From positions 1 to 25,527 of the forward strand of contig PLHN01000207.1 in the NCBI GenBank assembly GCA_003139975.1: a DNA stretch of 25,527 bases, given 5' to 3'. Under the pieces are notes generated by a model. The model saw nothing but the letters and a program-made list of their open reading frames with translations, was not told the DNA's origin and did no database searches. Positions 3,677 through 25,527 of the stretch are shown piece after piece. The stretch is from Acidobacteriaceae bacterium (GTDB taxonomy: Bacteria; Acidobacteriota; Terriglobia; Terriglobales; Acidobacteriaceae). The position numbers and the translations under genes are program-made. Each line of letters starts with the position of its first letter. Position 1 is the stretch's first letter.

Positions 3677-4552
3677 TCAACTTGTGCCCCGCAGCATTTG
3701 TCTGAGCTTCCTCCTTTTTCTTGCCCAGATGGGATCCACAAGACCCGAATACATGAACTGATATTCAGCAGGGGAATAGTACGATTCGATTTCCGTGCGC
3801 CAGATTAGATCAGGCGAATCGGAAGCGAGGCGCACAGTTCCGGGGCACGGCGAAAAGCACAAACGATGGGCTTGCTTGATGGCTTCCCAGGAACCGCGGG
3901 AGATGGCGTCCCACGAGTAAGCCCAGGCAAAGGCATCGACGGCCTTGCCAGTCCAGAGCGCGATCTGTTCGGAACTCGCCCGGATTTCGCGCTCACACTC
4001 GGGTGCCGGCAGTCTTAGCAGGTTAGCGTGGGACAGGGTGTGGTTGCCAATCCAATGCCCGCGGCGCGCGAGATCGGCGAGTTGTCGTGGCATCATCGGC
4101 TTCCAAATCTCGTCCTGGCGGGCCTCGGCGGACACAATATTTCGAATATCGATTTTCGAGTAGTAAAAATCTTTCGCCGCATTTCCTTCGAGACCGATGA
4201 ATTGCGGGACCACAAAAAATATGCCGCGCGCACCGAGGGATTCGAGAATGGGAGCAGCAATCAGGTAATTGCTCTCGCGACCATCATCAAACGTAAACAG
4301 AACCGCGGGCTTCGGGCCTGGCCATGTGGGCGTTCTGGTTTCGACCGCGCGCGCAAACAATTCCGGCGTGATGAGCGCAAAGCGCTTTGCGACCCACTCG
4401 ACCTGACGCTGGAACCGATCGGCGTGCGCGCTCAGGGTCTCGTGCATCTCCACCACGGTGCAGGACGCACTTCCGTGCACTGCCAGTGCGAGATCGTTGA
4501 TGCGCAGGCTGGCTGCGGTTTTCAGCACGACACTGCGAGCCAGTTTTCTCAA
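3677..4552 (-). CDS. Polysaccharide deacetylase, NodB-like
   Basis: The 291-residue product has NodB motif 1 FTFDDG at 86-91 (catalytic and metal-binding aspartates) and motif 2 as HTLSH at 171-175 (the two metal-binding histidines). Such enzymes remove N- or O-acetyl groups from sugar polymers with a divalent metal. Motif 3, normally an F-x-x-P-x-G type sequence, reads FAWAYSWD here, with alanine in place of proline, and motif 4 is not obvious, so substrate or activity may differ from chitin-type enzymes. No signal peptide is clear, suggesting a cytoplasmic lipid-linked substrate. The frame opens at a TTG (4552) with AGGA immediately before it; internal GTG codons are alternative starts, so the first ~10 residues are uncertain. 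The gene follows the GNAT gene by 24 bp. Confidence 0.87.
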   Translation of the reverse strand: MRKLARSVVLKTAASLRINDLALAVHGSASCTVVEMHETLSAHADRFQRQVEWVAKRFALITPELFARAVETRTPTWPGPKPAVLFTFDDGRESNYLIAAPILESLGARGIFFVVPQFIGLEGNAAKDFYYSKIDIRNIVSAEARQDEIWKPMMPRQLADLARRGHWIGNHTLSHANLLRLPAPECEREIRASSEQIALWTGKAVDAFAWAYSWDAISRGSWEAIKQAHRLCFSPCPGTVRLASDSPDLIWRTEIESYYSPAEYQFMYSGLVDPIWARKRRKLRQMLRGTS

Positions 4553-4576: not shown

Positions 4577-5662
4577 TCAGATAGTCCAGTCGCCATCGGC
4601 TGGAACAAAGTAGCAATCGTGGGTAGGCAGCAATCCGCGCCGGTCAAGGAGCCAGCCATTGGGCAACTCGAAGTCGCGTCTGCGAAAACCGGCCTCCAAC
4701 AATCGATTCCGGCTTGGTGCGGCCAGATTGCGCAGAACAATCATATCTGTGCGGTCGCGATATTTCTTGTGCAGGGCGGCAACGATCGCTGCCAGCGCAG
4801 CGGGTTCCGGTTTCGGAAATATGTCGACCACATTCAAAGAACGAATCTGCATCTTATAACCACGCCGCCGTTCGTTGACAGCCACGAACATCTGATTTTG
4901 GTTTCGTCGACTCTGGAAGACAAACAACGCCATCGATGGGTCCCTTCCCGAAAAATACCTCCAGCGCATGTAGGATTCATCTCTGCGGGCGGTGAGGTAA
5001 CTCGTCGACTCCCTTCGCAACAGTTCCATAACTTCTTCAACCGAGAACAGTCGCGCCAGTTCACCCTCCTGATCGGGCGGAAGCCGGAGCTTGCGAACGT
5101 GGCGTAACCATGCTGTCGCCGCTCCGGCGGCACGGGCTAGCGATGGGCGAGCGCCGCGGCGCCTCGCGAGTTCCTCGACAACGGGGGGCCAATGGACGAC
5201 TCCCAGGAGCTCGTGATCGGAGTCTGGGATTGGAGTTGCGCCGCGGGCCTTCCACAGCCGCGCCGCGATCGCATTGGCAGAATTGCCAAACACGGGGCTT
5301 TGATTGGGGGCGCCCGTGAATTTCAGAAATAGCGCTCCGCCGGAGCCGCGATGGGCTTCGTCAACGTAAAAACAGGTCGAACCCAGCATCAACACCGGAT
5401 TCTGCCTAAACACGAACATTTGAGGAAGATACAAGATACAGCCGACGAGCGCGTCCTGGTTCGAGCGCGCGCCGCAACCGAGAAGTCCGAATTCACTGCG
5501 GGTGGGATTTTCAAGCAACAGCCAGGTCAGACGGGACAGCGTTTCGCCGGGCGCGCGCCCGGATTGTGCAGCCACGAAGCCGGCCAGCTCCGGCAAGTCG
5601 TGTTCCGACAAATCGACAACGCTCACCTTCGACAACGGACCTGCAGCATTTGAAGCACTCAT
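4577..5662 (-). CDS. GNAT-like acyltransferase of polysaccharide loci
   Basis: The 361-residue protein has a GNAT-like core: hydrophobic strands, then FYVDEAHRGSGGALFLKF at about 98-115, which resembles the acetyl-CoA pyrophosphate loop (R/Q-x-x-G-x-G/A). A second part contains SYMRWRYF at about 229-237, a signature I associate with GNAT proteins next to deacetylase genes in exopolysaccharide clusters, followed by a C-terminal strand-helix region that may be a second GNAT half. It probably acylates an amino sugar or peptide-like substituent in the cytoplasm. Its ATG overlaps the stop of the upstream glycosyltransferase (ATGA, 5659-5662), so the two are translationally coupled, and the deacetylase follows 24 bp later, pairing acylation with deacylation. 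The fold call is moderate; the substrate is unknown. Confidence 0.65.
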   Translation of the reverse strand: MSASNAAGPLSKVSVVDLSEHDLPELAGFVAAQSGRAPGETLSRLTWLLLENPTRSEFGLLGCGARSNQDALVGCILYLPQMFVFRQNPVLMLGSTCFYVDEAHRGSGGALFLKFTGAPNQSPVFGNSANAIAARLWKARGATPIPDSDHELLGVVHWPPVVEELARRRGARPSLARAAGAATAWLRHVRKLRLPPDQEGELARLFSVEEVMELLRRESTSYLTARRDESYMRWRYFSGRDPSMALFVFQSRRNQNQMFVAVNERRRGYKMQIRSLNVVDIFPKPEPAALAAIVAALHKKYRDRTDMIVLRNLAAPSRNRLLEAGFRRRDFELPNGWLLDRRGLLPTHDCYFVPADGDWTI

Positions 5663-6837
5663 GGGTGTATCACATCGTGATAGAGATCGCTCAACCGGCG
5701 CACTTGATCTGCCAGTGTAAGGCCGTTGAGGATAGTTTGACGGGCATTCCCTCCGAGACTTGTCCTCAAGTCCGGCGAACCGAGCAGTTGTTGCAAGGCA
5801 TCGGTCATTTCTGGCACACCGTCAACCGGGATCAACCAGCCGTTTTGGCGATGCTGAATGATCTCGCCGATGCCTTGCCCCTCACAAGCGATCACTGCCT
5901 TGCCGCAAGACATGGCTTCAAGATACGCGCAGCCTAGGCCTTCGAAGCGGCTGGGCAGCGCAAAGATCGTACATTCGCGCATGGCTTTGGCAACCCCGGC
6001 GCGATCCTGGCGACCGAGAAAGGAAACTCTTTCGGAAATTCCCAGAGATCGGGCGAAGGCGGCGAAACGGGTTTGATCAGGACCTTCTCCGATCAAGCTG
6101 CAGTGCAGGCTCGGAAAGTGCGGCGCAATCTGAGCCATGGCCTTGAGCACGACCTCATGCCCCTTGCCGCGGAGAAGATTGCCAACCATTAAGATAGCGG
6201 GGGCGCGGTCAGGCATGGGCTTTTCTTCGGGAACAAATCTCTGAGGGTTCGTGCCGTTATAGATCACACAGCTCGAGACCTGGCCCTGCATGCCGTCTTC
6301 AAGAATCTTCTCGATCGCGCGGCTGATACAGATGACCGATGCGGCCCGGCTGTAAATCTCCTTCGACAGTTTCGCCCGCCGTGCGGCTGCCCGAGTCCCC
6401 GGTTCGAAACACGCGTTGAAAACGTCAAGCCCGTGGATGGTGACGACAAATGGAATGCGCAGGCGTTCGGCGAGCAAGAACGCGGCGTGACCGCAGGGCA
6501 GCACAGCGTGGGCCTGAATGACGTCAATCTTGGCGCGCTGATGGAGTGCCCTGATGAACGGTAGAACACGACCGTAAAGGAATAGGCCGGCGGTCGTCAG
6601 ACCGGAATTTCCCGGAAACGTGGGATAGCGGAGCCATTCGGCGCGGGCTTCCAACAGCGGGCGCCGGCGTTGGTGATGAAGAGGAGACACTCCGATAACA
6701 GTTGACCGCAGATTGAAGTCAGCAAAGTTGACAATCGGTTCGGAGATGTACGTGCCATAAACGGGATTTGCTGCGTGCGGGAAAAACGGAGTGATGGTAA
6801 GGACATGAAGCGGCGCACGATCTGGAAAAGAGTTCAC
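5659..6837 (-). CDS. Glycosyltransferase family 4
   Basis: A 392-residue GT-B protein. The N-terminal domain starts with a strand and a PxxxNPVYGTYI loop typical of GT4 acceptor domains; an HAVLPCG and TIHGLDVF region follows; the C-terminal nucleotide-sugar domain begins at VGNLLRGKG and has the EX7E motif in SRFEGLGCAYLEAMSCGKAVIA. GT4 enzymes are retaining transferases using nucleotide sugars to extend lipid-linked glycans at the cytoplasmic membrane face. The start is a GTG (6837) without a good Shine-Dalgarno; no ATG lies nearby in frame. The 3' end overlaps the GNAT gene by ATGA, and the ACP gene ends 24 bp upstream. Donor and acceptor cannot be told from sequence. Confidence 0.9.
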   Translation of the reverse strand: MNSFPDRAPLHVLTITPFFPHAANPVYGTYISEPIVNFADFNLRSTVIGVSPLHHQRRRPLLEARAEWLRYPTFPGNSGLTTAGLFLYGRVLPFIRALHQRAKIDVIQAHAVLPCGHAAFLLAERLRIPFVVTIHGLDVFNACFEPGTRAAARRAKLSKEIYSRAASVICISRAIEKILEDGMQGQVSSCVIYNGTNPQRFVPEEKPMPDRAPAILMVGNLLRGKGHEVVLKAMAQIAPHFPSLHCSLIGEGPDQTRFAAFARSLGISERVSFLGRQDRAGVAKAMRECTIFALPSRFEGLGCAYLEAMSCGKAVIACEGQGIGEIIQHRQNGWLIPVDGVPEMTDALQQLLGSPDLRTSLGGNARQTILNGLTLADQVRRLSDLYHDVIHP

Positions 6838-6861: not shown

Positions 6862-7128
6862 CTAGTTGACTTTACTGGCTTGACCGAGTGCCATTGTGAC
6901 AAGTTCGGCAATACCGCCGATGGTCGAAAAACGTGGATCTTGCATATCCGTTTCCGAGAATTGCATGCCGAAGCGATTTTCGATCTCGCTTACAAGTTCC
7001 ACGATTTCCAGCGACGTCAGCAAGCCGGACTGCAGGTAGTCAATTCCCAACGCCTCCCGCGCGCCGCAATGGAGTTTGGCGCGAGAAGAAAACCAATCCA
7101 CGATCCAATTCGAAACGTCTTCATCCAT
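6862..7128 (-). CDS. Acyl carrier protein
   Basis: An 88-residue acidic helical protein with the carrier-protein core GLLTSLEIVELVSEIENRFG. Ser39 is the expected 4'-phosphopantetheine site, but the usual Asp before it (DSL) is Thr38 here. The helix II sequence EIVELVSEIE and the spacing are otherwise typical of free-standing ACPs that serve acyl-adenylating enzymes. I chose the ATG at 7128 over an in-frame TTG at 7170 because the extra 14 residues look non-coding and a modest AAGAGA lies before the ATG. The gene follows the cyclase-family hydrolase by 72 bp and shares a block with an AMP-forming ligase, so the obvious idea is that the ligase or an associated step loads this carrier. It is unlikely to be the fatty-acid synthesis ACP, because no fab genes are near. 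Confidence 0.82.
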   Translation of the reverse strand: MDEDVSNWIVDWFSSRAKLHCGAREALGIDYLQSGLLTSLEIVELVSEIENRFGMQFSETDMQDPRFSTIGGIAELVTMALGQASKVN

Positions 7129-7200
7129 CACAAGATCTCTTTGATCCAAACACGAGTCTCCGCGGCGCAAGACCGCTCAGCAGACCGGTCCCAGTAAATA

Positions 7201-7860
7201 TTACCTTTCGATGGCCACGCAGCGCGTGGGAGCTCCGTCGGCGCCTTTGATTTTGAGTGGCAGGACCATAAGTTCAACCACTGACTTTGACAAAGAACGA
7301 AGGTTGCACAAATATTCGACCAGCACAACCTCCGCGCCCAACAGAACCTTGTGATTGGGAGAGTCGTTCCCGCTATTGCGCGAATGGGCCGGATTGTCTG
7401 GCGACGGCGTGTCCATGGCGATCAGGCGGCAACCATCATCCACCAGCCAGCGCGCAGCCTCTTGCGAAAAGTACGGATAATTGTTGTAGTACGTCATCTG
7501 GCCGAAGTAATCGGACCAATCCGTACGCAGAATCAGCCGCGTCGGCACCTTGCCCCCGAGTTTTTCCTTTAGAGCTGGAGTGCCAATCTCCTGATTCGGT
7601 TGAGCGGGAGCGAAATTGATTACCGTTGCTTCTCCGATTAACACATCGAGCGGGACTTCGTCGATGCCCCTGCCGCTTGGAATGAAGTGTAGCGGAGCAT
7701 CGGTGTGGGTTCCCGTGTGCGTGCCCAGGGTAACCTTGCGCGTTTCTCTTCCTTCGATTCCGTGGCGGCCGAGAATGCTGATCTCTACGACGGGGTGCCA
7801 GTGTGTGGGGAACGTCATCATGCCTTCATGCAGGCTCAGGGAGAGGTCAATGATCTTCAT
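7201..7860 (-). CDS. Cyclase-family (kynurenine formamidase-like) metal-dependent hydrolase
   Basis: The 219-residue protein begins MKIIDLSLSLHEGMMTFP and carries the family signature HTGTHTDAP at 48-56, whose histidines and aspartate bind zinc or manganese in characterised kynurenine formamidases; HSRNSGNDSPNHK later supplies further conserved polar residues. Known members hydrolyse N-formylkynurenine, isatin or lactone-like substrates, and some act in polyketide cyclisation, so the family alone does not set the reaction. The ATG at 7860 overlaps the stop of the acyl ligase (ATGA, 7857-7860), showing translational coupling; an upstream in-frame extension of 21 codons lies inside the ligase gene and was rejected. 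Placement between an acyl ligase and an ACP suggests hydrolysis or ring closure of an intermediate in the same small pathway. Confidence 0.85.
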   Translation of the reverse strand: MKIIDLSLSLHEGMMTFPTHWHPVVEISILGRHGIEGRETRKVTLGTHTGTHTDAPLHFIPSGRGIDEVPLDVLIGEATVINFAPAQPNQEIGTPALKEKLGGKVPTRLILRTDWSDYFGQMTYYNNYPYFSQEAARWLVDDGCRLIAMDTPSPDNPAHSRNSGNDSPNHKVLLGAEVVLVEYLCNLRSLSKSVVELMVLPLKIKGADGAPTRCVAIER

Positions 7861-9464
7861 GCAGGAGTGCTCTCTTTGGCGAGAGATGCTGTGTCTACCG
7901 GCGGGATCTGGAGCTTCTCCCAAACCAACTCCCGCAACCGGACTTTTTGAATCTTACCATTCGATGTGCGCGGGAATTCGTCGATGGCCATATAGCGTGA
8001 GGGCTGCTGATGGGCGGCCAAAGCCTGCTTGCACTGGGCCATGATCGATTCGAGAACAGAATCCAGACTCGTTCCTGGGTCGAGCTTCAAGACCGCGACG
8101 ATGTCTTCGCCATAGATCTCATGAGGCACGCTCACCACGGCTGCATCGACTACGCGAGCGGCGTGCAGGAGAACTTCTTCGATCGCCGCGGGGCTGATGT
8201 TGATGCCGCCGCGTATGATGAGATCTTTTCTTCTGCCCGTGATGAAAAGCGAACCGGTTTGATCGATGCGGCCGTAATCGCCGGTTGGGAACCACGCTCC
8301 TGCGTCTACTTTCCGGAGATCGCCGCTTCCGGAGAGATACCCGGCCATCAGATCGGGCGTCAGAACCTCGATCTCTCCTTCATCGTCGGATGGAACGACG
8401 GAGCCGTGGATATCGCACGCGCGCAAGCGGATTCCCGGCAGAGACTCGCCGACGTAGCCTTGGGTGTTATCGCGCGGATCGTCACTCGTGCGCGAACGAG
8501 CGGTCACGAACAAGGTTTCTGACAAACCATAACTTTCGATCAGCCTGACCCCGTAGCGTGCCTCGAAGTCCGCTTTTACTTTTGCAGACAGCGGGGCAAA
8601 ACCGACAAACATCTTTCTGATGGAAGACCGGCAGTAGTCCTCTCCCTGGCGGCCGCGATCCATTTTGAGGAGGATGGAGAGCACGGTAGGCGCAAGCCAC
8701 AGCGTGTTGACCTGGAATTTCCTGGCTCTTTCCCAAAACGTCAGGCTCGAACGCGCGTCGAAAACGTGATCGACAACCACGCTGGCGCCGGTGAGAAATG
8801 GCAAGAGCAACAAATTGTAAATGCCCCCCATGTAGGCCATGCTGAGGGTGAGATAAAAGCGCGAGTTGGAGTCAATCTCTTGCACTTCTGCGAGTGCCAT
8901 CGCATTGCGGACCATGCGGCCCATATGGTGTGCCAAACCCTTCGGTTTCGCCGTTGTGCCGGAGGTGTAGACAATCAATGCAAGATCGTCGTCGCTCATC
9001 TCACTGAACGGCACAAACGAAGACGAATCCGCGAGCCGGTTGAAATCAATGGCAACCTCAGTGCCCGGCGCTACCGGATCCTGCGAAGTGGACAAGCTGA
9101 TGGGACCGCGCAACGCGCTCGAAAGTCTCTGCCGCGCCGAAGAACTCACCGCCGTACACTTCGGCCGGCAGTTCGCAAGGATGTAGTCGGCTTCGGTCGC
9201 GCTTAGGTTGGGATTCACCGGCACAATGGTCGCGCCGCAGTAGAGGCAGGCAAAGTAAAGGACCACGAGTTCGGAGCAATTTGGCACCACGGTGGCGACG
9301 CGATCGCCAGGGTTAACACCCTGTTCGCGCAGATAGACTGCAACCGCGCATGCTTGCTTATGAAATTGAGCATAGGTGAACTCGCGCCCCGTGGCGGCAT
9401 CCACGAGGAACACGCGCTCACCGGAAGCATCCATGCGATCCGCAACAAGATCGCGAAATATCAT
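7857..9464 (-). CDS. AMP-forming acyl-CoA synthetase / acyl-ACP ligase
   Basis: A 535-residue ANL-superfamily enzyme. The P-loop YTSGTTAKPKG lies at 166-176, the aromatic/acid A5 motif appears as SYGLSE, the hinge as TGRRKDLIIRGGINI, and the catalytic lysine near the C-terminus in PRTSNGKIQK. Such enzymes activate a carboxylic acid with ATP to an acyl-adenylate and transfer it to CoA or a carrier-protein phosphopantetheine. It is joined by ATGA overlaps to the aldolase gene upstream (9461-9464) and the cyclase-family gene downstream (7857-7860). With an ACP encoded next, the acceptor may be that ACP rather than free CoA; this is inference. The length and motif order are normal, so the gene appears intact. 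Confidence 0.92.
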   Translation of the reverse strand: MIFRDLVADRMDASGERVFLVDAATGREFTYAQFHKQACAVAVYLREQGVNPGDRVATVVPNCSELVVLYFACLYCGATIVPVNPNLSATEADYILANCRPKCTAVSSSARQRLSSALRGPISLSTSQDPVAPGTEVAIDFNRLADSSSFVPFSEMSDDDLALIVYTSGTTAKPKGLAHHMGRMVRNAMALAEVQEIDSNSRFYLTLSMAYMGGIYNLLLLPFLTGASVVVDHVFDARSSLTFWERARKFQVNTLWLAPTVLSILLKMDRGRQGEDYCRSSIRKMFVGFAPLSAKVKADFEARYGVRLIESYGLSETLFVTARSRTSDDPRDNTQGYVGESLPGIRLRACDIHGSVVPSDDEGEIEVLTPDLMAGYLSGSGDLRKVDAGAWFPTGDYGRIDQTGSLFITGRRKDLIIRGGINISPAAIEEVLLHAARVVDAAVVSVPHEIYGEDIVAVLKLDPGTSLDSVLESIMAQCKQALAAHQQPSRYMAIDEFPRTSNGKIQKVRLRELVWEKLQIPPVDTASLAKESTPA

Positions 9465-11404
9465 TCCGCAGCCGCCATTCTGGCCTGTTGCGCCGCGGTG
9501 ACCATGGTTGAGATCGCGGTCCAGCGCGCCACCTGACCGCGGTAGGCTTGGCTCGGGTCAAGGCGGAGGATGGTTCGATCTGGCAGATCCTGCTTGAGGC
9601 GCGGGAAGTAACCGGCGGTGATCAGCACGGCATCCGCGGATAGAAGCTGGTCGACGGCCGTGGCATCAGCAGCGCTTGGAGGACACAGGAAAAGGGCAGC
9701 TGTCAGGCCAAGATCCAGATGCATGCGATCGGAGAAATCGGCGATCTCCCAGGCATTCGGAGGCGCGTTGGCCGGCAGGGTTCCGCGGACAGCAACATTG
9801 CGGAAAATTTGAGAATACCGAACGAGCGCATCAATCGGCGGATTGCCATAGACCAACAAGCCCAAGTCGCCGTGACGTTGTGCCACGCACAACAGAATTT
9901 CCTCTTCGAAAGCGGCGCGCAGATGCTTGGAGCGAATCGGAATTACGCGCTCTTCTCCAACCACATTCCGGATTAGTGCCGAGTGATCGCTAGCCCATGA
10001 CCCGCCGTCCAGATCCAGTAGATAAAACGCTATGCTATCGCGGGTGAGATCCAATACCTGCTCCAACAGCGGCAAGGAGCCGTACCTGACACGGCCAACC
10101 ACCGTCGCATCTTCGGCCAGAACCAAGTCGGCTAGAACCAGGTCGGGGCGGGGGCTTTCGGATGGCACAAGTTCCAGGACGGGTTTCGCCCGGCGTTTGG
10201 CGCAGGTCACGCTCATTCCTTCAACCAGCGACCGCACTGACTGAAGCGAAGCGCTGATGGCGTGTTCGGAAATGCCGGACGCGCAGAACGAGATCAATGC
10301 CTCGTTGCGAGTGTTCTTTGGCGCCTTCGGCAAGCTGCGTGCGATGCGATCGAGTTCCGGCTCATTCAGCTCTACGGGATTCAGCTTTCCCATCGCGATC
10401 ACAAGGCGACGCAAATCGACGCCATGGTTCTTGGCAGCCGCAGCCACTTTGGGCAGGAAAGAAGAATGGAACTGGCTGTAGCCCATCGCCACCGAAATCA
10501 TGTCGTAGAGCTGCATCTGCGACATGAGCGGGCCCATGAACTGTTCGGCTGCATCCATTACTTCGAAAAGATCGATCCCGGTTTCGATCCCGAGGTTCTT
10601 GAAAACGGCGACGGCGATTTCGGTAGGCACGTTGCCGGCGCTTCGGCCCAAACCATAGAGCGTGGCGTCGATCATCGTTGCCCCGCAGCGGAACGCCTCA
10701 ACGCTATTGGCAACCGCAAATTGCAGATTGCTGTGTCCGTGAAAGCCGATGGCGCAGTTACAGATTTCGCGCGTCGCGCTCACGTAGCGGCGTACGTCTT
10801 CGGGAAACATACTCCCCGCGGAATCTACGCAGTAGACAGCCTCGGCCCCAGCCGACTCCCCACCTTTTGCTTTTGCCGCAAACTGTTCGTGCGTAACGCC
10901 GTACGTCTTCATGAAGTTCAGACACGGGATCAGCCCGAGACTGCGCGCAAGCTCGATGTAGGGATATGCCTGCTCGATCTCAGGAGCGTTGTAACCGATT
11001 CGAACGAAATCGAGGCCGGCGGCACGAGCCGATTTCAGGTCGTCGGCGGTGCCGATGCCGGGAATGAAGAAAGCTCCGATTTTGGCAGATGAGAAACCCG
11101 CGGAGGCAGTAGCAGATTTGGCCGATTCGATCAGGCGCTCGTCGCTTGTGGGCATGGAGCCTTTGCCAGCACGAGCAGCCCCCAAGCCCAGACCGTGTCC
11201 TACTTCAATCCACTTGAACCCGAGCTTCGCCAGAACGCCAGAGAGAATGATAGTGTCGCGTTCGGTGAATTTGAAATCCACCGCATAGCTTCCGTCACGC
11301 AGAGTGCACTCGAGGATCTCAACCCGGTTTGCGGAATCTGGCGACGGGGCGATTGGCCGGTCTGTTTGCTGGTCAGTCCCTAAGATTTTGTGGGCCGCGG
11401 CCAT
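9461..11404 (-). CDS. HMGL-like aldolase (DmpG-type) with long C-terminal extension
   Basis: The 647-residue product has an N-terminal TIM-barrel aldolase domain (about 26-310) of the pyruvate carboxyltransferase / 4-hydroxy-2-oxovalerate aldolase family: TLRDG at 34-38 with metal-binding D37, HGHSN at 222-226 with the two metal histidines, and GLGRSAGN at 251-258. Members make or break C-C bonds next to a 2-oxo acid with a divalent metal. Beyond ~residue 360 is a 280-residue region I do not recognise, with alternating hydrophobic strands and helices suggesting an additional alpha/beta domain; it contains a 5-codon tandem duplication. Stand-alone DmpG enzymes are ~340 residues, so this is a fusion or extended form. 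The ATG at 11404 follows AAGGAA closely. It opens a coupled block with the acyl ligase and cyclase-family genes, suggesting it makes the acid they process. Confidence 0.85.
   Translation of the reverse strand: MAAAHKILGTDQQTDRPIAPSPDSANRVEILECTLRDGSYAVDFKFTERDTIILSGVLAKLGFKWIEVGHGLGLGAARAGKGSMPTSDERLIESAKSATASAGFSSAKIGAFFIPGIGTADDLKSARAAGLDFVRIGYNAPEIEQAYPYIELARSLGLIPCLNFMKTYGVTHEQFAAKAKGGESAGAEAVYCVDSAGSMFPEDVRRYVSATREICNCAIGFHGHSNLQFAVANSVEAFRCGATMIDATLYGLGRSAGNVPTEIAVAVFKNLGIETGIDLFEVMDAAEQFMGPLMSQMQLYDMISVAMGYSQFHSSFLPKVAAAAKNHGVDLRRLVIAMGKLNPVELNEPELDRIARSLPKAPKNTRNEALISFCASGISEHAISASLQSVRSLVEGMSVTCAKRRAKPVLELVPSESPRPDLVLADLVLAEDATVVGRVRYGSLPLLEQVLDLTRDSIAFYLLDLDGGSWASDHSALIRNVVGEERVIPIRSKHLRAAFEEEILLCVAQRHGDLGLLVYGNPPIDALVRYSQIFRNVAVRGTLPANAPPNAWEIADFSDRMHLDLGLTAALFLCPPSAADATAVDQLLSADAVLITAGYFPRLKQDLPDRTILRLDPSQAYRGQVARWTAISTMVTAAQQARMAAAE
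10116..10145 (-). repeat. 15-bp tandem duplication inside the aldolase gene
   Basis: Two adjacent 15-base units (10116-10130 and 10131-10145) differ at only two positions and encode DLVLA twice in a row within the unrecognised C-terminal region. The unit is exactly five codons, so the reading frame is kept. It looks like a recent small slippage duplication. Confidence 0.75.
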
Positions 11405-11445
11405 TTCCTTGAGAACCTGCTCTGACGAACTGGCTGGAAAACGTC

Positions 11446-11471
11446 AGTATACTATCGTTCCCTATTGTAAA
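11446..11471 (-). promoter_or_regulatory. Possible promoter before the aldolase gene
   Basis: In the 83-bp gap between the glycosyltransferase and aldolase genes, the minus strand shows TATACT (-10-like, 11446-11451) and TTTACA (-35-like, 11466-11471), each one or two bases from consensus. The spacer is only 14 bases, shorter than the usual 16-18, so strength is doubtful. If real it would let the aldolase-ligase-cyclase-ACP block be transcribed apart from the upstream glycan genes. Confidence 0.3.
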
Positions 11472-11487
11472 CGCGCCAGCCGCAGCC

Positions 11488-12657
11488 CTAGTGCGTGGAG
11501 ATCAGCGTCTTCGCCAGATCAAGCAGCTGTGTGACGTGCTTTCCCCAGTTGAACTCTCTGGATCGGGCGCGGCCGGCCCGCGACAACTGGGCTGCCAACT
11601 CTGGATCATTAGAAACCTGGAGGACGCAGTCAGCCAACCCCTCCGGGGAAAAACGTGGGAAGTAGACAGCCGCGTTCCCGCCGATTTCCCGATGCACGGC
11701 TAGGTCCGACGCAACGATGGGCAAGCCGCTCCACATCGCCTCGACCAAAGGATGGGCAAACGATTCCGCGTATGCGGGTGTGACGTAAATGTGGCAGGCA
11801 CGGTAAAGATGATGCAGCGAACGATAAGGAATGGCTCCGAGCTCGACGATGTCTTGATCGGCGCGCAAATCGCTCACCAGCGACGAAGCGGCTTCGGCGT
11901 GGTACGTTCCGGGGTTCTGGCCCGAATCCAAGCGGCAGGTGAGATAGAGCTTCACTTTCCTGGCCGGCATTGCCTTCTTCAAGATGGGAATAGCCCGGAA
12001 CAGGGTTTCAAAATTCCGGTAGTAGTTGTAATGGCTGACAAATAGCAGGCGGAGAGCATCCTCGCCGTGGATCAATTGCGTTTGCGTTTCTGCCGGCAAG
12101 GGAGCCGAATCGCCCGCGAAAGCTGTCGGGTCGAAACCATGGTGAACGGCCACGACTTCCCTGCTGCTCCACGCGGTGAGTTCGCGGGCAAAGGCTTTGC
12201 TGGGAGCTACTGCCACGTCGGCACGGCGAATGGATTCGCGCGCGAACCATCCTTTAATTAATGTATCTGCCCAGATCGCGTAGTCGCCGCGGGCACGAAT
12301 ATCACGGACAAAATCGGCGGAAGTGTAGAGCGCGTTTCGAGACAAGAGAATCTGCGGAACGGGAGAATTCCTGAGAGCGAAGTTGCCGGCAGAAATCAAG
12401 ACCTGCGCACCGCTGTTCCGCACCAGGCCTGCAAGTTTAGTCTGTTCATGAAAGAAGCGCCGAGTCACGCTGAAAGAATCCGCGTTTTCGACAAACGAAA
12501 TGCTGGGAAGGTCCCCAAATTCGCGGCGCAAGCCGGAACTTAGTAGGACGGTAGCTGCGGCGGTCTCTCGCCGTCCTAACTCCGGAATCACATTGCGCAG
12601 GTAAGTCAGTCCCCCGCCCGCGCTCGCGGCCAGTCCATTGATGAACATCTGGATCAT
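11488..12657 (-). CDS. Glycosyltransferase family 4
   Basis: A 389-residue GT-B protein starting MIQMFINGLAASAGGGLTYLRN, a typical GT4 opening with a glycine-rich acceptor loop. The C-terminal domain begins near LRLLFVSHYNYYRNFETL and carries EX7E in AYAESFAHPLVEAMWSGLPIVASD. It would transfer a sugar to a lipid-linked glycan in the cytoplasm. The frame is open for another 53 codons upstream, but those lie inside the polymerase gene; the ATG at 12657 overlapping that gene's stop (ATGA, 12654-12657) is the best start, with another ATG three codons later. It is the last gene of a coupled trio: glycosyltransferase, polymerase, glycosyltransferase. Confidence 0.9.
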   Translation of the reverse strand: MIQMFINGLAASAGGGLTYLRNVIPELGRRETAAATVLLSSGLRREFGDLPSISFVENADSFSVTRRFFHEQTKLAGLVRNSGAQVLISAGNFALRNSPVPQILLSRNALYTSADFVRDIRARGDYAIWADTLIKGWFARESIRRADVAVAPSKAFARELTAWSSREVVAVHHGFDPTAFAGDSAPLPAETQTQLIHGEDALRLLFVSHYNYYRNFETLFRAIPILKKAMPARKVKLYLTCRLDSGQNPGTYHAEAASSLVSDLRADQDIVELGAIPYRSLHHLYRACHIYVTPAYAESFAHPLVEAMWSGLPIVASDLAVHREIGGNAAVYFPRFSPEGLADCVLQVSNDPELAAQLSRAGRARSREFNWGKHVTQLLDLAKTLISTH

Positions 12658-14075
12658 CGGTTGGAAACGACTGCCCCAAAGTGCGCAGGCAGGTGAGCGG
12701 GGCGAACAAAAATAGCCGAAGCAGGCGCTCTCAATGTGGCCGGCATAAGATCTGCGAGCAGGAACGCGAAGGTCCAGAAGAAAATCGACGGATACGCCCC
12801 AACTGCAAAGAGCCAATCTTCAAAACCTGCATGCACGAAGCCAGCCAGCAGGACCATGGCCAGGGGAATGGAGTAATGGCGGAAATTGGTTGTTCTCTTC
12901 ATCCAAACGCACACTCGCCACACATTCGATGCGGTGAGCGCGAGAAGCGCCGGGAAGGGCACGACGCCGAGAAGCCCCACCCACCCTGCAATGGTCATGT
13001 AGCTGCTGCCATGTTCACGAACCGTCTCTGCGCTCGAAGCAAATCTCCCGAAGTAAAGTCCCGGATCCTCGCCAGTAGGGCTTGTGCCGTAACCAGTGCC
13101 GAACAGAGGATGCTGCTTGATCGAGGCGATTGAGTCTTCCCACGGCGTTTTTCGAGAGCCCAGCATACCCTCGTCCTTGTGTCCCTTGTAAAGGACTTCA
13201 TCTTCCAAAGCGGAGAGCCTTTGGTTGAGGGACGCAGGAGCCACCATTCCACTCACCGCCATCAGGAACACGACGAAACCAACCACCTTCGCCAGCAGTT
13301 TGTATTGGCGAAGGCAAACGCAAAATACCAGTGTGACAAGAATCAGGGAGATCATGGCGGCGCGGGCCATGCTGAAGAAAATGAGATACGAACAAAGAAG
13401 CAGGGCTGCGAGTCTTCGCGTCTTCAACACCGGTCCCTCGGCCGTCAACCATCCCCACAGCAAGAGGGGGAAGATTCCAATGCTCATTGCCGCGCCAAGC
13501 GAGTTCGGATTTCCCCAAATGCCGGCGCCAAGGCCGAGATAACAAACGGCCGTGCCTACGGTTGCGATCTCACACGCCAGGAGCAGGCCTTTGAAGAAGC
13601 GTTCCTCACGACCCAAAACAGCAACTCGCGCCCCGGAACAGCAGTACAGGAAGAGCAACAGCAAACTGAGCGCTTTCAAGGACGCCATTTGTACGTAAGT
13701 CGAAACGGATGCGGACACAAAAGCCGCAATCACGCAGAAGAAAGCAATCAGATGAATCGATTTGAAATGGCTGCGCGGAACCTTCATCCAGACGACGTAG
13801 CCAGTAACGGCGCCGGCGGCTAATACAACCCAGCGGCCACCAGTCCAAGCGCCTTGGAAGGGAACGTTCATGCCAGCCCAGACGAACGCAATCATAAGCA
13901 ATACGAAGAAACGTTGGTCGTACTTCCAAAGGCTGGCGATGATGATTTCGATCAACAAAATGCCACCCAGGAAGGAAACATCTCGAAAATACTGCAGGTG
14001 GGAGTACACGGCATACAGAACAAAAGCCACGCCCGCGGCCAAGCCCGCCCACTGTGCAAGCTTCCTCGAGTTCAT
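12654..14075 (-). CDS. O-antigen polymerase/ligase-like membrane protein (Wzy/WaaL family)
   Basis: The 473-residue protein is almost wholly hydrophobic, with roughly 10-12 membrane segments. GNPNSLGAAM in the middle and a large hydrophilic loop with SIKQHPLFGTGYGTSP and REHGSSYMTIAGWVG match the O-antigen ligase/polymerase superfamily, where the large periplasmic loop holds the catalytic residues. It probably polymerises repeat units, or ligates the finished chain to lipid or protein, on the outer face of the inner membrane. The two roles cannot be told apart by sequence. The ATG at 14075 overlaps the stop of the preceding glycosyltransferase (ATGA, 14072-14075); the longer frame upstream is antisense-free but lies inside that gene and was rejected. 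Confidence 0.88.
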   Translation of the reverse strand: MNSRKLAQWAGLAAGVAFVLYAVYSHLQYFRDVSFLGGILLIEIIIASLWKYDQRFFVLLMIAFVWAGMNVPFQGAWTGGRWVVLAAGAVTGYVVWMKVPRSHFKSIHLIAFFCVIAAFVSASVSTYVQMASLKALSLLLLFLYCCSGARVAVLGREERFFKGLLLACEIATVGTAVCYLGLGAGIWGNPNSLGAAMSIGIFPLLLWGWLTAEGPVLKTRRLAALLLCSYLIFFSMARAAMISLILVTLVFCVCLRQYKLLAKVVGFVVFLMAVSGMVAPASLNQRLSALEDEVLYKGHKDEGMLGSRKTPWEDSIASIKQHPLFGTGYGTSPTGEDPGLYFGRFASSAETVREHGSSYMTIAGWVGLLGVVPFPALLALTASNVWRVCVWMKRTTNFRHYSIPLAMVLLAGFVHAGFEDWLFAVGAYPSIFFWTFAFLLADLMPATLRAPASAIFVRPAHLPAHFGAVVSNR

Positions 14076-15223
14076 CGGGCCTGCCTTGCAGCCGAAAGTG
14101 CGGCTGCCGCCAACCCGGCGGCGCATGCCTCTGGCGAGTATTCTCGAATTCGTTCGGTGCTCCGCACGCTCATCTGCCGCCTCAGTTCGGGGCTCTTTAT
14201 AAGAGAATCGAGTGCCGCTTTGAGTCTTTCTGGATTCCCTGGAGGCACTATGTAGCCATTTCCCCCGTCCTCGACGAGGTCCGCCGAACAACCAGCGACG
14301 TTGGTCACGACAATCGGAAGTCCGCAAGCCATAGCTTCATTCACGACCAAACCCCACGGGTCACTATGTGTTGGCAGGACCAGCGCCTCTGACAAAGCAT
14401 ACAGGATTGCGAGTTCCTCGCGTTGCACAAAGCCGGGGAAACAAACTGTTCCCGGGCGGATATTTTGAGCCAGCCTGACGAGCTTTGCCCGCGCCGGACC
14501 ATCGCCGGCGAACACTAAGCCTACATTGCTCCGAACGACCTTCTCTAGTTTGGAATAAGCTTCCAGCAGGTCGAAGATACCTTTTTCAGCAACGAGCCGC
14601 GCGCCACACAGGACAAAGCGTTGCGGAAGTGCCCATTTCCGCCTCTGTTCTGCCGCGTGAGCACGGGCCAGATCCGCGTGAGCGGCGAAGAACCGATTAT
14701 CCACCGCGTTGGGCGCTGTGAAGATGACCTGTTCATCTACTCCAAGATTTCGGAGATAGGCAAAGGAAGATTTCCCGGGCACGACGAATGAACTGCACTC
14801 TCGCGCAAAACACCGCTTCAGATACTCTACGGCAGCGTTCCCGGCTCTCTTGTCTCGCTGGTTGCTCTCCGACCACAGGACGAAACGCACATTGTGCCCG
14901 CGCGCCCATCTGAGCGATCCCCACGAAGCCGGGTAGTTATAGCCGCCACAAATAACCGCATCCGGATTCGCCGCCATCAGGGCAGACCGTAGGCCGCGAT
15001 TGAAGAGAAGGCTGTGCTTTCCAGTTCGTAATCGCCAGGAGGAGAGAACTTCATAGGAGAAGCGAATCTCGTCGCCGTAAATGCGCCACTTTCGAAGCGC
15101 GGCGTCGGTTTCCGCCAGGAAGATAACGTGCAGATCCACTCCAGTCTGACGTGCCAGGGCATTGAAGACAGGAATGCGATAAGGGGCGATGATTTCCGTG
15201 ATCAGTGCGATCCGCCTGGTCAT
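14072..15223 (-). CDS. Glycosyltransferase family 4
   Basis: The 383-residue protein opens with ITEIIAPYRIPVFNAL, a hallmark of GT4 enzymes in O-antigen clusters, and has the donor-binding domain from CGARLVAEKGIFDLLEAY onward. The EX7E position reads DPWGLVVNE, with aspartate in place of the first glutamate, a substitution compatible with activity. It acts on lipid-linked glycan at the cytoplasmic face of the membrane. The ATG at 15223 overlaps the TGA of a small 65-codon frame upstream, and its own stop overlaps the polymerase start, so it sits in a translationally coupled chain. Confidence 0.9.
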   Translation of the reverse strand: MTRRIALITEIIAPYRIPVFNALARQTGVDLHVIFLAETDAALRKWRIYGDEIRFSYEVLSSWRLRTGKHSLLFNRGLRSALMAANPDAVICGGYNYPASWGSLRWARGHNVRFVLWSESNQRDKRAGNAAVEYLKRCFARECSSFVVPGKSSFAYLRNLGVDEQVIFTAPNAVDNRFFAAHADLARAHAAEQRRKWALPQRFVLCGARLVAEKGIFDLLEAYSKLEKVVRSNVGLVFAGDGPARAKLVRLAQNIRPGTVCFPGFVQREELAILYALSEALVLPTHSDPWGLVVNEAMACGLPIVVTNVAGCSADLVEDGGNGYIVPPGNPERLKAALDSLIKSPELRRQMSVRSTERIREYSPEACAAGLAAAALSAARQAR

Positions 15224-20755: not shown

Positions 20756-20953
20756 TCAGATGTAACCCAGGTCCCGCAAGCGCTGCTCAAGGATTGCCTT
20801 TTCTTTCTGGTCGAGCTTCTCGGCATCGTCGCGAAGAATTTCATGCAGAATGAATTCCAGTAACGACTCGATCGTTGGAAATTGCTTGCCATAGCGCTGT
20901 TCAGCCGCAGCGCAGAGTTCTTCCGGCAAGCTGACCTGCCTCTGGGTGTTCAC
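20756..20953 (-). CDS. Small ribbon-helix-helix-like protein
   Basis: A 65-residue protein with a short strand (RQVSLPEEL), helix A, a turn and helix B (TIESLLEFILHEIL), the order of MetJ/Arc/CopG-type ribbon-helix-helix DNA-binding proteins, then a charged tail ending RLRDLGYI. The GTG start overlaps the flippase stop (GTGA, 20950-20953), so it is made with the flippase. Ribbon-helix-helix proteins act as dimers and commonly repress their own operon, so local regulation is possible, though the strand has little basic character. I do not recognise the family with certainty; a protein-binding role is the alternative. No partner toxin is next to it, arguing against an antitoxin. Confidence 0.6.
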   Translation of the reverse strand: MNTQRQVSLPEELCAAAEQRYGKQFPTIESLLEFILHEILRDDAEKLDQKEKAILEQRLRDLGYI

Positions 20954-22560
20954 TTTCCGATGGCTCCACGTATCCGATCCCGAACCGCAGTCATAATCAC
21001 TTTGTCGTCATCATCCAAGCCAAAGATCAAGGACAGCCCACCAAACACGACATACGAAGCCACCAGCGCCGCGCCAATCCAGGGCCATTGCGGCTGGTGC
21101 TGGCCCACCGCGAGCTTTACGCCGAACACCGTGCCAATGGTCGCCATGGCGGGCACAATCAGGCGAAAATAAGTCCAGTTGTAGGGCGAGAATTGCAACG
21201 CGACACGAACTTCGCGCAGATAAAAATAATTGCTCACCGCATTGCTCAACGCCGCTGCTGCCGCCACGCCCAGCATTCCGAATGGTCTCACCAGGACCAG
21301 GGTGACGGCCACTACAAAAATCGCCATCATCGCCTGAATCCGAATCAGGCGCCGTTGATTGCCTGACATCAGCAGTAGGTAGCCAACCGAGCCCACACCC
21401 GTGTTTATCAACTGACCGAGTGTACCGACGATTAGCACCGCCCAGCCTGCCCCAAATGCAGGACCGAACAGCAGCATGAGCGGTTTGGAGAAAATCATCA
21501 CGACGAACGCCAGCGGCAAGGTCAGCCCGAAAATCCACTTCGTGAGTGTTTGAAAAAGTCGGCTCAGCAGAGCGTGCTCTCCACGCGCGTGCAAGTCTGC
21601 GATGGTGGGAGAGAAAATCTGGTTTACCGACTGCAGAACGATGGACACAAAACCAACAAGCGTGGCCGCGACCGCGTAGATACCGACATCCCGCGCCGCA
21701 AGGAAAACTCCGAGCAGCACCTTATCAGTCTGGGACAAAATAAATTCCAGGAAACTTACGCCCAACGCAGCCGCCGAGAACCAGAAAACCTCAGGTTCCA
21801 TTGCGACCGCGCCGCCCGGGGGCCGCCGCGCCTGCGGCGGAGTCATTTTCCAGGCCATAGAAACAAGCAGAAGAAGAACCACCGCACTCGCCGCCACCTG
21901 CGAGAACAAATAGCCGCGCAGCGCCAGACCGGCGCTCAGAACGATAACGCCGGCCACGACGCTCAGCGGACTGCCAATGAAATTCGTTATCAAGGTGCGG
22001 ACTGCGACGTCCTTGTAACCGGCAAGAATCTGCCCGCAAAACGAGGTCAGTCCTCCCAGTGCAAGCAAGGCCGCGAAAAAAGGTAAGTACGGAATGAGCG
22101 CCGGCGTGTGGTAGATGTGCAGCGCCAACCATGGTCCAGTGACAAGGACTGCGATAGCCATGGCCACATTGCTGACGAGCAGCACCGCTGACATTCGGCG
22201 AAGAAACCCGTGCAGCCGCTGCCATTGCCCGGTTCCAGAGTACGCCGCAACAAACCGCGTCGCCGCTTGTGGCAGGCCCAAACCGTTGAAGATTCCCAGG
22301 AACCCGACAATCGTCATGCCAAGCGCGTAAATGCCCAGCCCATCCGCGCCCAGAACCCGCGCCGCGTAGATCTTGAAGAGATATCCGGCGGCTGCGGTAA
22401 ACAGGCTGCCCGCAAAATACACCGTGGAGTGCCGCGAAATTTCGCCAACCTGACTGCGGAATTGGGCTTGCTGATTTGCCAGTAATGGCGAATCCAGCGG
22501 CTCGATTGTTGTATCGGAGGTGCCCAAGATTTGTCGCTGCTCCGTTGCTATGCCGGCCAC
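20950..22560 (-). CDS. Oligosaccharide flippase (Wzx-like, MOP superfamily)
   Basis: The 536-residue protein has a ~45-residue polar N-terminus, then 12-14 membrane segments beginning with GSLFTAAAGYLFKIYAARVLGADGLGIYAL, a typical polysaccharide-flippase first helix pair with the ARxLG-x-x-x-x-G-Y motif. Charged loops such as RLFQTLTKW and the late LLLMSGNQRRLIRIQ match the family. It would move undecaprenyl-linked repeat units across the inner membrane, feeding the polymerase/ligase encoded at 12654-14075. The start is GTG at 22560, 13 bases after the stop of the GT-B-like gene; its stop overlaps the small ribbon-helix-helix-like gene. No better ATG lies in a suitable place. Confidence 0.9.
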   Translation of the reverse strand: MAGIATEQRQILGTSDTTIEPLDSPLLANQQAQFRSQVGEISRHSTVYFAGSLFTAAAGYLFKIYAARVLGADGLGIYALGMTIVGFLGIFNGLGLPQAATRFVAAYSGTGQWQRLHGFLRRMSAVLLVSNVAMAIAVLVTGPWLALHIYHTPALIPYLPFFAALLALGGLTSFCGQILAGYKDVAVRTLITNFIGSPLSVVAGVIVLSAGLALRGYLFSQVAASAVVLLLLVSMAWKMTPPQARRPPGGAVAMEPEVFWFSAAALGVSFLEFILSQTDKVLLGVFLAARDVGIYAVAATLVGFVSIVLQSVNQIFSPTIADLHARGEHALLSRLFQTLTKWIFGLTLPLAFVVMIFSKPLMLLFGPAFGAGWAVLIVGTLGQLINTGVGSVGYLLLMSGNQRRLIRIQAMMAIFVVAVTLVLVRPFGMLGVAAAAALSNAVSNYFYLREVRVALQFSPYNWTYFRLIVPAMATIGTVFGVKLAVGQHQPQWPWIGAALVASYVVFGGLSLIFGLDDDDKVIMTAVRDRIRGAIGK

Positions 22561-24339: not shown

Positions 24340-25395
24340 TCAGCGCAACACTAGCGTCCAATCGAGGGGCGTTCCTTTTTCTATGTCGCGGGCGGCGCGC
24401 TGGCCCAGAACTTCTTTCAGGTGCCGGGGGTGCAAGCCATCGGAGGGGCGAACCGACCGCACGTTTTGCACCGTGAAGACCTCGCCTCTCCTGATATTTT
24501 CGGCAACGAAAAGCGAGCGCCGAAATTTGCGGCTGCCGGCTTCGCGCGCCGACGGTGCAAACTGAACGGATCCAAGAGCCTTTTCCGCCGTGCGCACCGC
24601 ATCGACCATCGCCTTAAATTCCTGCGGCTCGAGGGAGAATGCGCCGTCGGGACCGCCGTCCGCGCGACTCAAACAAAGATGCTTTTCGATGATGCACGCG
24701 CCCAGGGCAACGGCGGCCGCGGGCACCGCAATCCCCATCGTGTGATCGGAAAGTCCCGCAGGAGAATCGAAACGCCGGGCCAGTTCGGGAATGGTGCGCA
24801 GGTTGGCTTCCTCGGGCAGCGCCGGGTAAGCGCTCGTGCACTTCAGCAAGGCGATCTCGGTTGCGCCTGCCGCCCGCGCAGCTTCGACTGCTTCCGCAAT
24901 CTCGTCCTCGCTCGCCATGCCTGTCGACATGATCAAAGGTTTGCCCGTGCGGGCCATTTTCTGAATCAGCCCAATATCGACCAGTTCGCACGATGCCACT
25001 TTGTGCGCGGGCACATTCATCTGCTCGAGGAAATCCACCGCCGTCCCGTCGAACGCGCTGGAGAAACAATGCATGCCGAGTTGCTCCGCTAAATCTTTCA
25101 GCTTGGGCTGCCATTCCCAGGGCGTGAACGCTTCCTGATAGAGATCGTGGAGTGTGCGGCCATCCCAGAGCGTCCCGCCGCTGATGCGGAAGCACTCCTT
25201 GTCGCTGCGCAGCGTGATCGTGTCGGGTGTGTAGGTTTGCAGCTTGACGGCATCGGCACCGGCGTCTTTCGCGGCGTGAACGATGCGAACCGCCTGCTCG
25301 AAACTCTGATTATGATTCGCGGAGAGTTCGGCAACGACATAGACGGGCGCGCCGGGTCCAATCAAGCGCTTGTTGATCTGAAGGCTAGGCCCCAT
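24340..25395 (-). CDS. pseI: Pseudaminic acid synthase-type nonulosonic acid synthase
   Basis: The 351-residue protein is a NeuB-family synthase that condenses phosphoenolpyruvate with a 6-carbon amino sugar to give a 9-carbon nonulosonic acid. VVAELSANHNQSFEQA, DAVKLQTYTPDT, STGMAS, LLKCTSAYPA, LSDHTMGI and IEKHLCL mark the barrel; a C-terminal SAF (antifreeze-like) domain begins near SLFVAENIRRGE. GTLWDGRTLHDLYQEAFTPWEW is characteristic of PseI rather than of sialic or legionaminic acid synthases, so pseudaminic acid is the likely product. I chose the ATG at 25395, preceded by AAGGTGAG six bases upstream and overlapping the preceding stop by one base (TGATG), over a GTG one codon earlier. 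The other Pse enzymes are expected beyond the right edge. Confidence 0.9.
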   Translation of the reverse strand: MGPSLQINKRLIGPGAPVYVVAELSANHNQSFEQAVRIVHAAKDAGADAVKLQTYTPDTITLRSDKECFRISGGTLWDGRTLHDLYQEAFTPWEWQPKLKDLAEQLGMHCFSSAFDGTAVDFLEQMNVPAHKVASCELVDIGLIQKMARTGKPLIMSTGMASEDEIAEAVEAARAAGATEIALLKCTSAYPALPEEANLRTIPELARRFDSPAGLSDHTMGIAVPAAAVALGACIIEKHLCLSRADGGPDGAFSLEPQEFKAMVDAVRTAEKALGSVQFAPSAREAGSRKFRRSLFVAENIRRGEVFTVQNVRSVRPSDGLHPRHLKEVLGQRAARDIEKGTPLDWTLVLR

Positions 25396-25527
25396 CACGA
25401 ACTCACCTTTTCGTTGGGATGAGACACGGCTTCGCCGGGAAGAAACGGCGTGCAGCGGCCACTGCGGATAACAGCAAGCGCGTTTTCGCCCTCGTTGAAC
25501 AGCAGGTCAAGCACGCAGGCATAAGGC
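25395..25527 (-). CDS. C-terminal end of an unrecognised gene, cut by the right edge
   Basis: On the minus strand one frame is open from the right edge to a TGA at 25395-25397 that shares one base with the pseI ATG. The 43 visible residues include VLDLLFNEGENALAVIRSGR and end in PNEKVSS. Third codon positions are fairly GC-rich, as in the neighbours, and the one-base stop/start overlap supports a real gene. I cannot name the family from this tail; by position it may belong to the nucleotide-sugar or pseudaminic acid steps. Confidence 0.55.
   Translation of the reverse strand, partial: PYACVLDLLFNEGENALAVIRSGRCTPFLPGEAVSHPNEKVSS
25402..25409 (-). promoter_or_regulatory. pseI: Shine-Dalgarno of pseI
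   Basis: Minus-strand AAGGTGAG six bases before the ATG at 25395. It favours that ATG over the GTG immediately upstream and lies inside the end of the preceding gene. Confidence 0.6.

Follow-up and report, generated by a model that had tools for sequence, protein, structure and literature searches.

A conserved aldolase, ligase, cyclase and acyl carrier protein cassette, probably directed at pseudaminic acid, with an aldolase of distinct active-site type

Nonulosonic acids displayed at the surface of bacteria bear N-acyl groups of many kinds, a large part of which have no known source. The stretch of DNA analysed here (the window; 25,527 nucleotides of contig PLHN01000207.1, assembly GCA_003139975.1, from an Acidobacteriaceae bacterium) contains, within a polysaccharide locus, four consecutive genes for a two-domain aldolase, an ANL-type acid ligase, a cyclase-family metal hydrolase and a dedicated acyl carrier protein (ACP). 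We describe this quartet as a conserved acylation cassette that is probably directed at pseudaminic acid (Pse) and whose aldolase has an active site of a distinct type. We consider it probable, though by no means assured, that the cassette builds a short hydroxy- or oxo-acyl group, presented as a thioester, for the N-acylation of Pse in a surface glycan; in the window this glycan is probably an exopolysaccharide, and in several marine bacteria probably that of flagellin. The cassette is a defined gene set that is also present in cultured marine bacteria, and it makes one source of N-acyl groups directly testable.

A first-pass annotation of the window had described four consecutive genes, the first three joined by ATGA overlaps. 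Both statements were borne out: all four genes lie on the minus strand, their proteins exceed the curated Pfam cut-offs, and the overlaps are found at 9461-9464 and 7857-7860. The same annotation had named rare co-occurrence of the four families as the outcome that would speak against a functional unit. A 28-row aldolase alignment, to which the neighbouring genes made no contribution, served as the query against named genomes and returned 72 loci (given below by our L numbers) with aldolases of two kinds, the kind present in the window (Y-type) and that of DmpG and BphI (catabolic-type). Ligase and cyclase genes follow the aldolase in the same order and on the same strand in 21 of the 72 loci, and the ACP gene is present as well in 19 of these 21. 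The pair is found in 21 of the 30 Y-type loci in which at least 2.9 kb are visible downstream, while seven other Y-type loci show less than 2.8 kb behind the aldolase; neither cyclase nor ACP occurs in any of the 35 catabolic-type loci, 29 of which show at least 2.9 kb downstream. Four phyla are covered by the 21 cassette loci, namely Acidobacteriota (L033-L036, L038-L041, L043, L044; ten loci), Sumerlaeota (L045), Myxococcota (L061) and Pseudomonadota (L058, L060, L062-L067, L103; nine loci). Hence, the four families do occur together, in order and across four phyla. The ACP and VOC profiles used in the scan of the loci were built from these same loci; single queries with the cyclase and the ACP of the window retrieve the same 21 and 19 loci, respectively. 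Pairwise distances of the four proteins correlate with r values of 0.88-0.95 over 19 loci including the window (L043, L062 and L065 being excluded) and of 0.77-0.97 over the nine of these outside Acidobacteriota, and these values partly reflect the relatedness of the species, which lessens their weight. The quartet is a conserved, co-inherited unit.

The three partners of the aldolase carry the motifs of their families. In the ligase, the GK of the motif FPRTSNGKIQK is invariant across 19 ligases of the module. The cyclase scores 108.6 bits against PF04199 (cut-off 23.1), and its HTGTHTDAPLH agrees with the pattern HxGTHxDxPxH, which we take to be the metal motif of the cyclase superfamily and which recurs in the alignment of the module cyclases with a varying Pro. 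Together, the 22 cyclases of the module (the window and 21 loci) form one branch (support 100/98) relative to 20 other cyclases from Acidobacteriota; that of the window is 51-55% identical to distant cyclases of the module and 31-39% identical to the 20 other matches in 396 Acidobacteriota genomes. An assignment as the arylformamidase KynB was considered and rejected, as the TIGR03035 equivalog model gives 91.5 bits and has a cut-off of 223.05. The ACP (23.4 bits against PF00550, cut-off 20.8) carries its phosphopantetheine Ser in LLTSLEIVEL, a residue that is kept in the aligned ACPs of the module, and also has the QDxRF motif typical of the module.

The connection to Pse is provided by the surroundings of the quartet. 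The window is part of a contig of 34,444 bases (C422) from a genome of 545 contigs that is 72.7% complete. Near the end of the window lies a pseudaminic acid synthase gene, the product of which scores 491.6 bits with the PseI model TIGR03586 (cut-off 340.25) and 298.2 bits, below the cut-off of 399.65, with the NeuB model. Beyond PseI, the same strand of the contig encodes a WbqC-like protein, a GNAT protein, PseG, a fusion of a cytidylyltransferase-like protein with an aminotransferase, PseC and PseB, up to position 32951; the scores and cut-offs are 493.5/407.75 for PseB, 477.2/423.5 for PseC and 188.5/153.55 for PseG, and the PseF-like part of the fusion was found by phmmer only (92 bits). 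An acidobacterial polysaccharide locus is thereby shown to encode pseudaminic acid genes. A Terriglobia metagenome-assembled genome (MAG) of the same genus (G001, the genome of L033) contains within about 31 kb PseB, PseC, the PseF fusion, PseG, PseH, PseI, about 11 kb of polysaccharide genes and then the quartet, followed by a glycosyltransferase, a relative of protein P0005, a methyltransferase, a deacetylase and an asparagine synthase-like protein. PseI and ACP of G001 were placed by separate searches, a longer overlapping frame having displaced PseI in the list of open reading frames. The GNAT protein of G001 reaches 152.1 bits with the PseH model (cut-off 93.1); its gene stands just before PseI, at the place where C422 has the WbqC-like protein (25507-26169; L140:1508-2170, minus strand) between the GNAT gene and PseI. 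At the place of PseF, G001 encodes a fusion of a Gfo/Idh/MocA oxidoreductase, a cytidylyltransferase and a class III aminotransferase (L139:13727-16000 into L105:2-1813), and the counterpart on C422 is the cytidylyltransferase-like/aminotransferase fusion at L140:3628-5424, minus strand, as placed by phmmer.

Position relative to PseI is similarly informative elsewhere. Among the 17 module genomes tested, 12 exceed the cut-off of the PseI model (9 from a set of 14, together with the window, L066 and L064), and the remaining five loci (L058, L060, L063, L067, L103) have a phmmer match of 391-648 bits to the PseI of L066. In 15 of 22 loci, the window included, PseI belongs to the same locus at a distance of no more than 15 kb (the window, L033, L034, L036, L039-L041, L043, L058, L060, L063, L064, L066, L067, L103); in L041 and L043, the lengths of the contigs place it and the cassette on one contig. 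The aldolase starts at most 2.3 kb behind PseI in seven of them: directly behind it in L058, L060, L066 and L103, with a DUF4910 gene between in L063 and L064, and at 1.8 kb in L067. PseB, PseC and PseG are encoded further upstream in these seven loci, the curated models having been applied to the genes of L066, L063 and L064. Bacteria with the cassette behind PseI belong to Vibrio, Grimontia and Pseudoalteromonas, and a MAG of the Legionellaceae shares this arrangement; flagellin genes are present in the same locus in L058 and L063 and, by phmmer, also in L060 and L103.

Outside Acidobacteriota, nine loci (L045, L058, L060, L061, L063, L064, L066, L067, L103) have the full cassette, in the order aldolase, ligase, small VOC-like protein, cyclase and ACP, and next to it genes for AAC(3)-like and DUF4910 proteins. 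ACP and AAC(3)-like genes are both present in ten loci, these nine and L047, and both absent from the cassette loci L062 and L065. The gene L045:6682-8871 encodes an AAC(3)-like acyltransferase fused to DUF4910/DUF2172, which suggests that the two act in one step. Within Acidobacteriota, the window and all ten fetched loci that show the ACP have a family-4 glycosyltransferase gene behind it. Seven fetched loci offer enough room downstream (L033, L034, L036, L038, L040, L041, L043), and each of them, like the window, encodes after the quartet this glycosyltransferase, a member of the P0005 family and a polysaccharide deacetylase. Since they follow the quartet in all of these loci, the relatives of P0005 and the deacetylase are candidates for the transfer step, and the deacetylase-like protein might liberate an amino group. 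For P0005, previously annotated as GNAT-like, this designation found no support, as no Pfam match was obtained up to an E value of 0.5, except a sub-threshold ESPR match, and no plausible PDB profile match; of the 118 listed members of its family, P0005 included, not one carries a Pfam domain or has been named for a function.

Several observations weigh against a role of the cassette in Pse acylation. No AAC(3) match was found in the 11 acidobacterial cassette genomes at an E value of 1e-5, and the candidate acyltransferase of the window, P0005, is proposed from its position and has no recognised fold. Nine Y-type loci with room downstream have no ligase-cyclase pair (L047, L049, L051, L053-L057, L104), although L047 does have a ligase and an ACP and lacks the cyclase, while L062 and L065 possess aldolase, ligase and cyclase without ACP. 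In these latter two, neither PseB nor PseI exceeds its cut-off, nor is there a clear Pse pathway; PseB and PseI lie on another contig in L045 and L061; and in L035, L038 and L044 PseB exceeds the cut-off and PseI does not, L044 showing only a 41-bit piece of PseI at the edge of the locus. No GNAT protein on C422 fits the PseH model, its own one also staying below the rimI and PRK03624 cut-offs. PseI exceeds the cut-off in 19 of 61 relatives, mostly without the cassette, and a full-length aldolase occurs in two of the 61; co-occurrence alone is consequently a weak argument in Acidobacteriota, and the Pse argument relies on position instead. In a different explanation, the acyl-CoA or acyl-ACP provided by the cassette goes into something other than Pse (a lipid, the O-acyl group of a polysaccharide or another amino sugar), and the Pse genes are mere neighbours in a surface-glycan island. 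It would accommodate L062 and L065 as well as the frequency of PseI among relatives, and the methyltransferases and the sulfatase-family protein of the window may likewise modify something. We nevertheless judge this explanation unlikely, if well worth weighing: the aldolase gene stands close behind PseI in the seven loci named above, among them those of Vibrionaceae, Pseudoalteromonadaceae and Legionellaceae, and near-complete Pse gene sets are found on the contig of the window and in G001.

The aldolase itself is best understood by comparison with DmpG (1nvm). Its N-terminal part is an HMGL/DmpG-like class II pyruvate aldolase, and the best named families are 4-hydroxy-2-oxovalerate aldolases, with 291.7 bits for the subfamily model NF006049 (cut-off 229) and 262.9 bits, below the cut-off of 286, for the equivalog TIGR03217. 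The DmpG fold and the metal ligands are retained; R36, D37, H222 and H224, which correspond to R17, D18 and the H200/H202 pair of DmpG, the latter presumably binding the metal, are conserved in all readable rows. Three other positions differ, as Y40 stands at H21, F112 at L88 and H313 at Y291 of DmpG. In the 37 Y-type rows, one of which has a gap at position 40, Y is found in 36/36, F in 37/37 and H in 37/37, compared with H in 33/34, L in 34/34 and Y in 34/34 of the catabolic-type rows, L101 (H, L, F) and the distant L104 (Y, F, H) having been set aside; all 121 close homologues of the window aldolase, itself included, have Y, F and H. Asn163 and Lys166 likewise set the Y-type apart, each occurring in 36 of its 37 rows and in no row of the 34 catabolic-type ones, and may serve to hold a charged acceptor. 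The numbering of BphI presumably lies one below that of DmpG, which is consistent with Thr at 87, Leu at 88, Val at 290 and Tyr at 291 in DmpG. Tyr-290 is reported to restrict BphI to the (4S) product, whereas two double variants, L87W/Y290F and L87N/Y290F, are reported to use the (4R) isomer (PMC3962088; for single variants, see PMC4012138). The exchange in the window aldolase recalls these engineered variants of reversed stereospecificity (PMC3962088): a bulky residue at BphI position 87 combined with a residue other than Tyr at 290 suggests an inverted stereochemistry relative to BphI. For enzymologists, the swapped His/Tyr pair is of interest as a natural counterpart to this laboratory reversal.

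The C-terminal part of the aldolase (about residues 360-647), an addition relative to DmpG and BphI, is a Rossmann-like domain in the fold model, possibly a reductase. It recurs in other long Y-type aldolases; the 354-residue aldolase of L066 lacks it, and the remaining myxococcal and proteobacterial cassettes yielded no match. A second explanation assumes that the aldolase acts on a sugar aldehyde to form an unusual ulosonic acid, ligase and ACP serving a separate acylation. Long Y-type aldolases without ligase or cyclase do occur near PseI- and PseC-like genes in L054, L055 and L056, perhaps as another use of the same enzyme (L055 is an archaeal MAG), and a charged acceptor held by Lys166 and Asn163 might fit as well. 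Each of the 21 cassette loci has, however, its aldolase and ligase genes side by side, the two share an ATGA overlap in the window, and L047 ties aldol chemistry to an activated acid, so that we regard this explanation as improbable. In this Latescibacteria locus, which encodes a Y-type aldolase, an ACP and an AAC(3)-like protein and no cyclase, the gene L047:12819-15128 fuses an ANL ligase to an RraA-like aldolase domain, a fusion in favour of an activated acid that arises by aldol chemistry of the pyruvate type. That the aldolase is a remnant of catabolic meta-cleavage, cleaving its substrate to pyruvate and an aldehyde as an ordinary 4-hydroxy-2-oxovalerate aldolase, is scarcely credible despite the named families and the NF006049 score, since no readable member among those examined keeps the His21, Tyr291 or Leu88 of DmpG, the cassette context is absent from all 35 catabolic-type loci, and the Pfam scan of the 20 window proteins, which did not extend to the rest of the genome, detected neither an aldehyde dehydrogenase family nor the acylating acetaldehyde dehydrogenase partner (DmpF-like).

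From the families, their order, the clade structure, the active-site exchange and the Pse genes, which are observed, we infer every chemical step of the pathway by which the cassette would supply an N-acyl group for Pse. The Y/F/H-type aldolase would condense pyruvate with an aldehyde to a 4-hydroxy-2-oxo acid whose configuration would probably be the reverse of that given by BphI. This oxo acid might undergo further conversion, in Acidobacteriota and some others by the Rossmann-like C-terminal domain and in most other cassettes by the VOC-like protein, and the cyclase-family hydrolase would keep the acid open or hydrolyse a cyclic or amide by-product. The ANL ligase would then adenylate the acid and load it onto the dedicated ACP, from which an acyltransferase, the AAC(3)-like protein outside Acidobacteriota and the candidate P0005 in the window, would transfer the acyl group onto Pse, or onto a UDP-sugar precursor, at an amino group. 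The earlier proposal that an acid is made, loaded onto the ACP and used to decorate a sugar agrees with the gene context, and the sugar can now be named as pseudaminic acid; its description of the suggested transferase as GNAT-like is left unsupported. By analogy with the tetronate of Vibrio cholerae O1 (PMC12208996, PMC3441752), a 2,4-dihydroxy acid is one candidate for the product, and 2-keto-4-hydroxybutyrate, a possible precursor, is described as formed from pyruvate and formaldehyde by a class II pyruvate aldolase (PMC10992282). A 3-hydroxy acid is another candidate, on the speculative assumption of a 2-oxo-acid dioxygenase activity in the VOC-like protein; the N-acyl groups known from Pse include (R)-3-hydroxybutanoyl (PMC9676051). 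A bolder proposal, which we advance as a doubtful one, is that the aldolase subfamily with swapped catalytic His and Tyr and the Leu-to-Phe exchange makes (4R) 4-hydroxy-2-oxo acids that enter an undescribed, carrier-bound pathway to N-acyl-Pse spread across Acidobacteriota, Sumerlaeota, Myxococcota and Pseudomonadota. Oxidative decarboxylation of the VOC type could then yield an (R)-3-hydroxy acyl group outside Acidobacteriota.

Several described systems resemble the cassette in part. The one of V. cholerae O1 differs in its sugar, perosamine; its further tetronate genes are presumably of dehydrogenase or reductase types, and we know of no aldolase or cyclase among them. What it shares is an ANL ligase in a glycan locus, putatively with a small carrier protein (VC0248-VC0252, RfbK/RfbL), and a short hydroxy acid, 2,4-dihydroxybutanoate, that is activated for the N-acylation of an amino sugar (PMC12208996, PMC3441752). 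Acyl-activating cassettes beside nonulosonic or amino-sugar genes are already known from the group II polar flagellin islands of Aeromonas (PMC7874193) and from enterobacterial flagellin islands, where they are termed 'fatty acid synthesis' genes (PMC4875605). Aeromonas group II islands have an ACP and an AMP-dependent synthetase between the Pse genes, and they differ by a 3-oxoacyl-ACP reductase, luxE and luxC (PMC7874193), none of which has a counterpart in the set of 20 window proteins; neither aldolase nor cyclase appears as a word in the main text of that article. In Acinetobacter baumannii, a change of genes (psaGH/lgaHI) swaps acetyl for 7-N-(R)-3-hydroxybutanoyl on Pse or legionaminic acid (Leg); two alternative genes are involved there, and the term 'acyl carrier' is absent from the main text (PMC9676051). 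Campylobacter jejuni makes Pse with a short oxygenated acid, a di-O-methylglyceric acid derivative, and this derivative has been linked to the function of Cj1295, which is listed as an aminopeptidase; the N-acetyltransferase Cj1296/7 is its numerical neighbour, and the terms aldolase and acyl are absent from the main text of the source (PMC3068675). DUF4910 and AAC(3)-like genes accompany the aldolase in L066. We take Cj1295 and Cj1296/7 to be of these same two types.

The features of the window are collected in Table 1. All of its 20 main reading frames lie on the minus strand, so that the quartet may share a transcript with its neighbours. A promoter suggested earlier in front of the quartet was not recovered: a sigma-70 scan was empty in the 83-bp gap upstream of the aldolase (11405-11487; background of the scan, 3 sites in 5 kb vs 1.8 expected), where inspection by eye yields only TTTACA/TATACT with a 14-nt spacer. 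The quartet had also been called self-contained, which holds for its evolution as a unit and less so for its layout, as the next gene begins 24 bp past the ACP and the same downstream genes are kept in Acidobacteriota.

Table 1. Features of the window, with coordinates, strand and basis of assignment
Feature	Coordinates	Strand	Basis
Two-domain aldolase P0001, 647 aa	9461..11404	-	Pfam HMGL-like, residue comparison, fold model
ANL-type acid ligase P0002, 535 aa	7857..9464	-	Pfam AMP-binding and AMP-binding_C
Cyclase-family metal hydrolase, part of P0003, ATG at 7860, 219 aa	7201..7860	-	Pfam Cyclase
Dedicated acyl carrier protein, part of P0004, ATG at 7128	6862..7128	-	Pfam PP-binding
Family-4 glycosyltransferase, downstream of ACP	5659..6837	-	Domain scan, fetched loci
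P0005, 361 aa, candidate acyltransferase by position only	4577..5662	-	
Polysaccharide deacetylase-like protein, conserved downstream neighbour	3677..4552	-	
Pseudaminic acid synthase PseI	24340..25398	-	TIGR03586
Wzx-type flippase (Polysacc_synt), same polysaccharide locus	20950..22560	-	Pfam
Wzy_C (O-antigen ligase/polymerase) protein, same polysaccharide locus	12654..14327	-	Pfam

Further proteins of the window deserve brief mention. An asparagine synthase-like amidotransferase (950-2848) exceeds the cut-off of TIGR01536 and reaches 440 bits, below the cut-off of 816.9, with the model of the XrtA/PEP-CTERM amidotransferase. A 576-residue protein (22574-24304) has no Pfam or NCBIfam match; its relatives are encoded near PseI in L105, L039 and L040, that of L039 showing only a sub-threshold match to the DUF6716 glycosyltransferase. 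Within the polysaccharide locus, a sulfatase-family protein (17296-18855) adjoins a 381-residue protein of no known Pfam family (18857-20002), and relatives of both are present in L038, L041 and L043.

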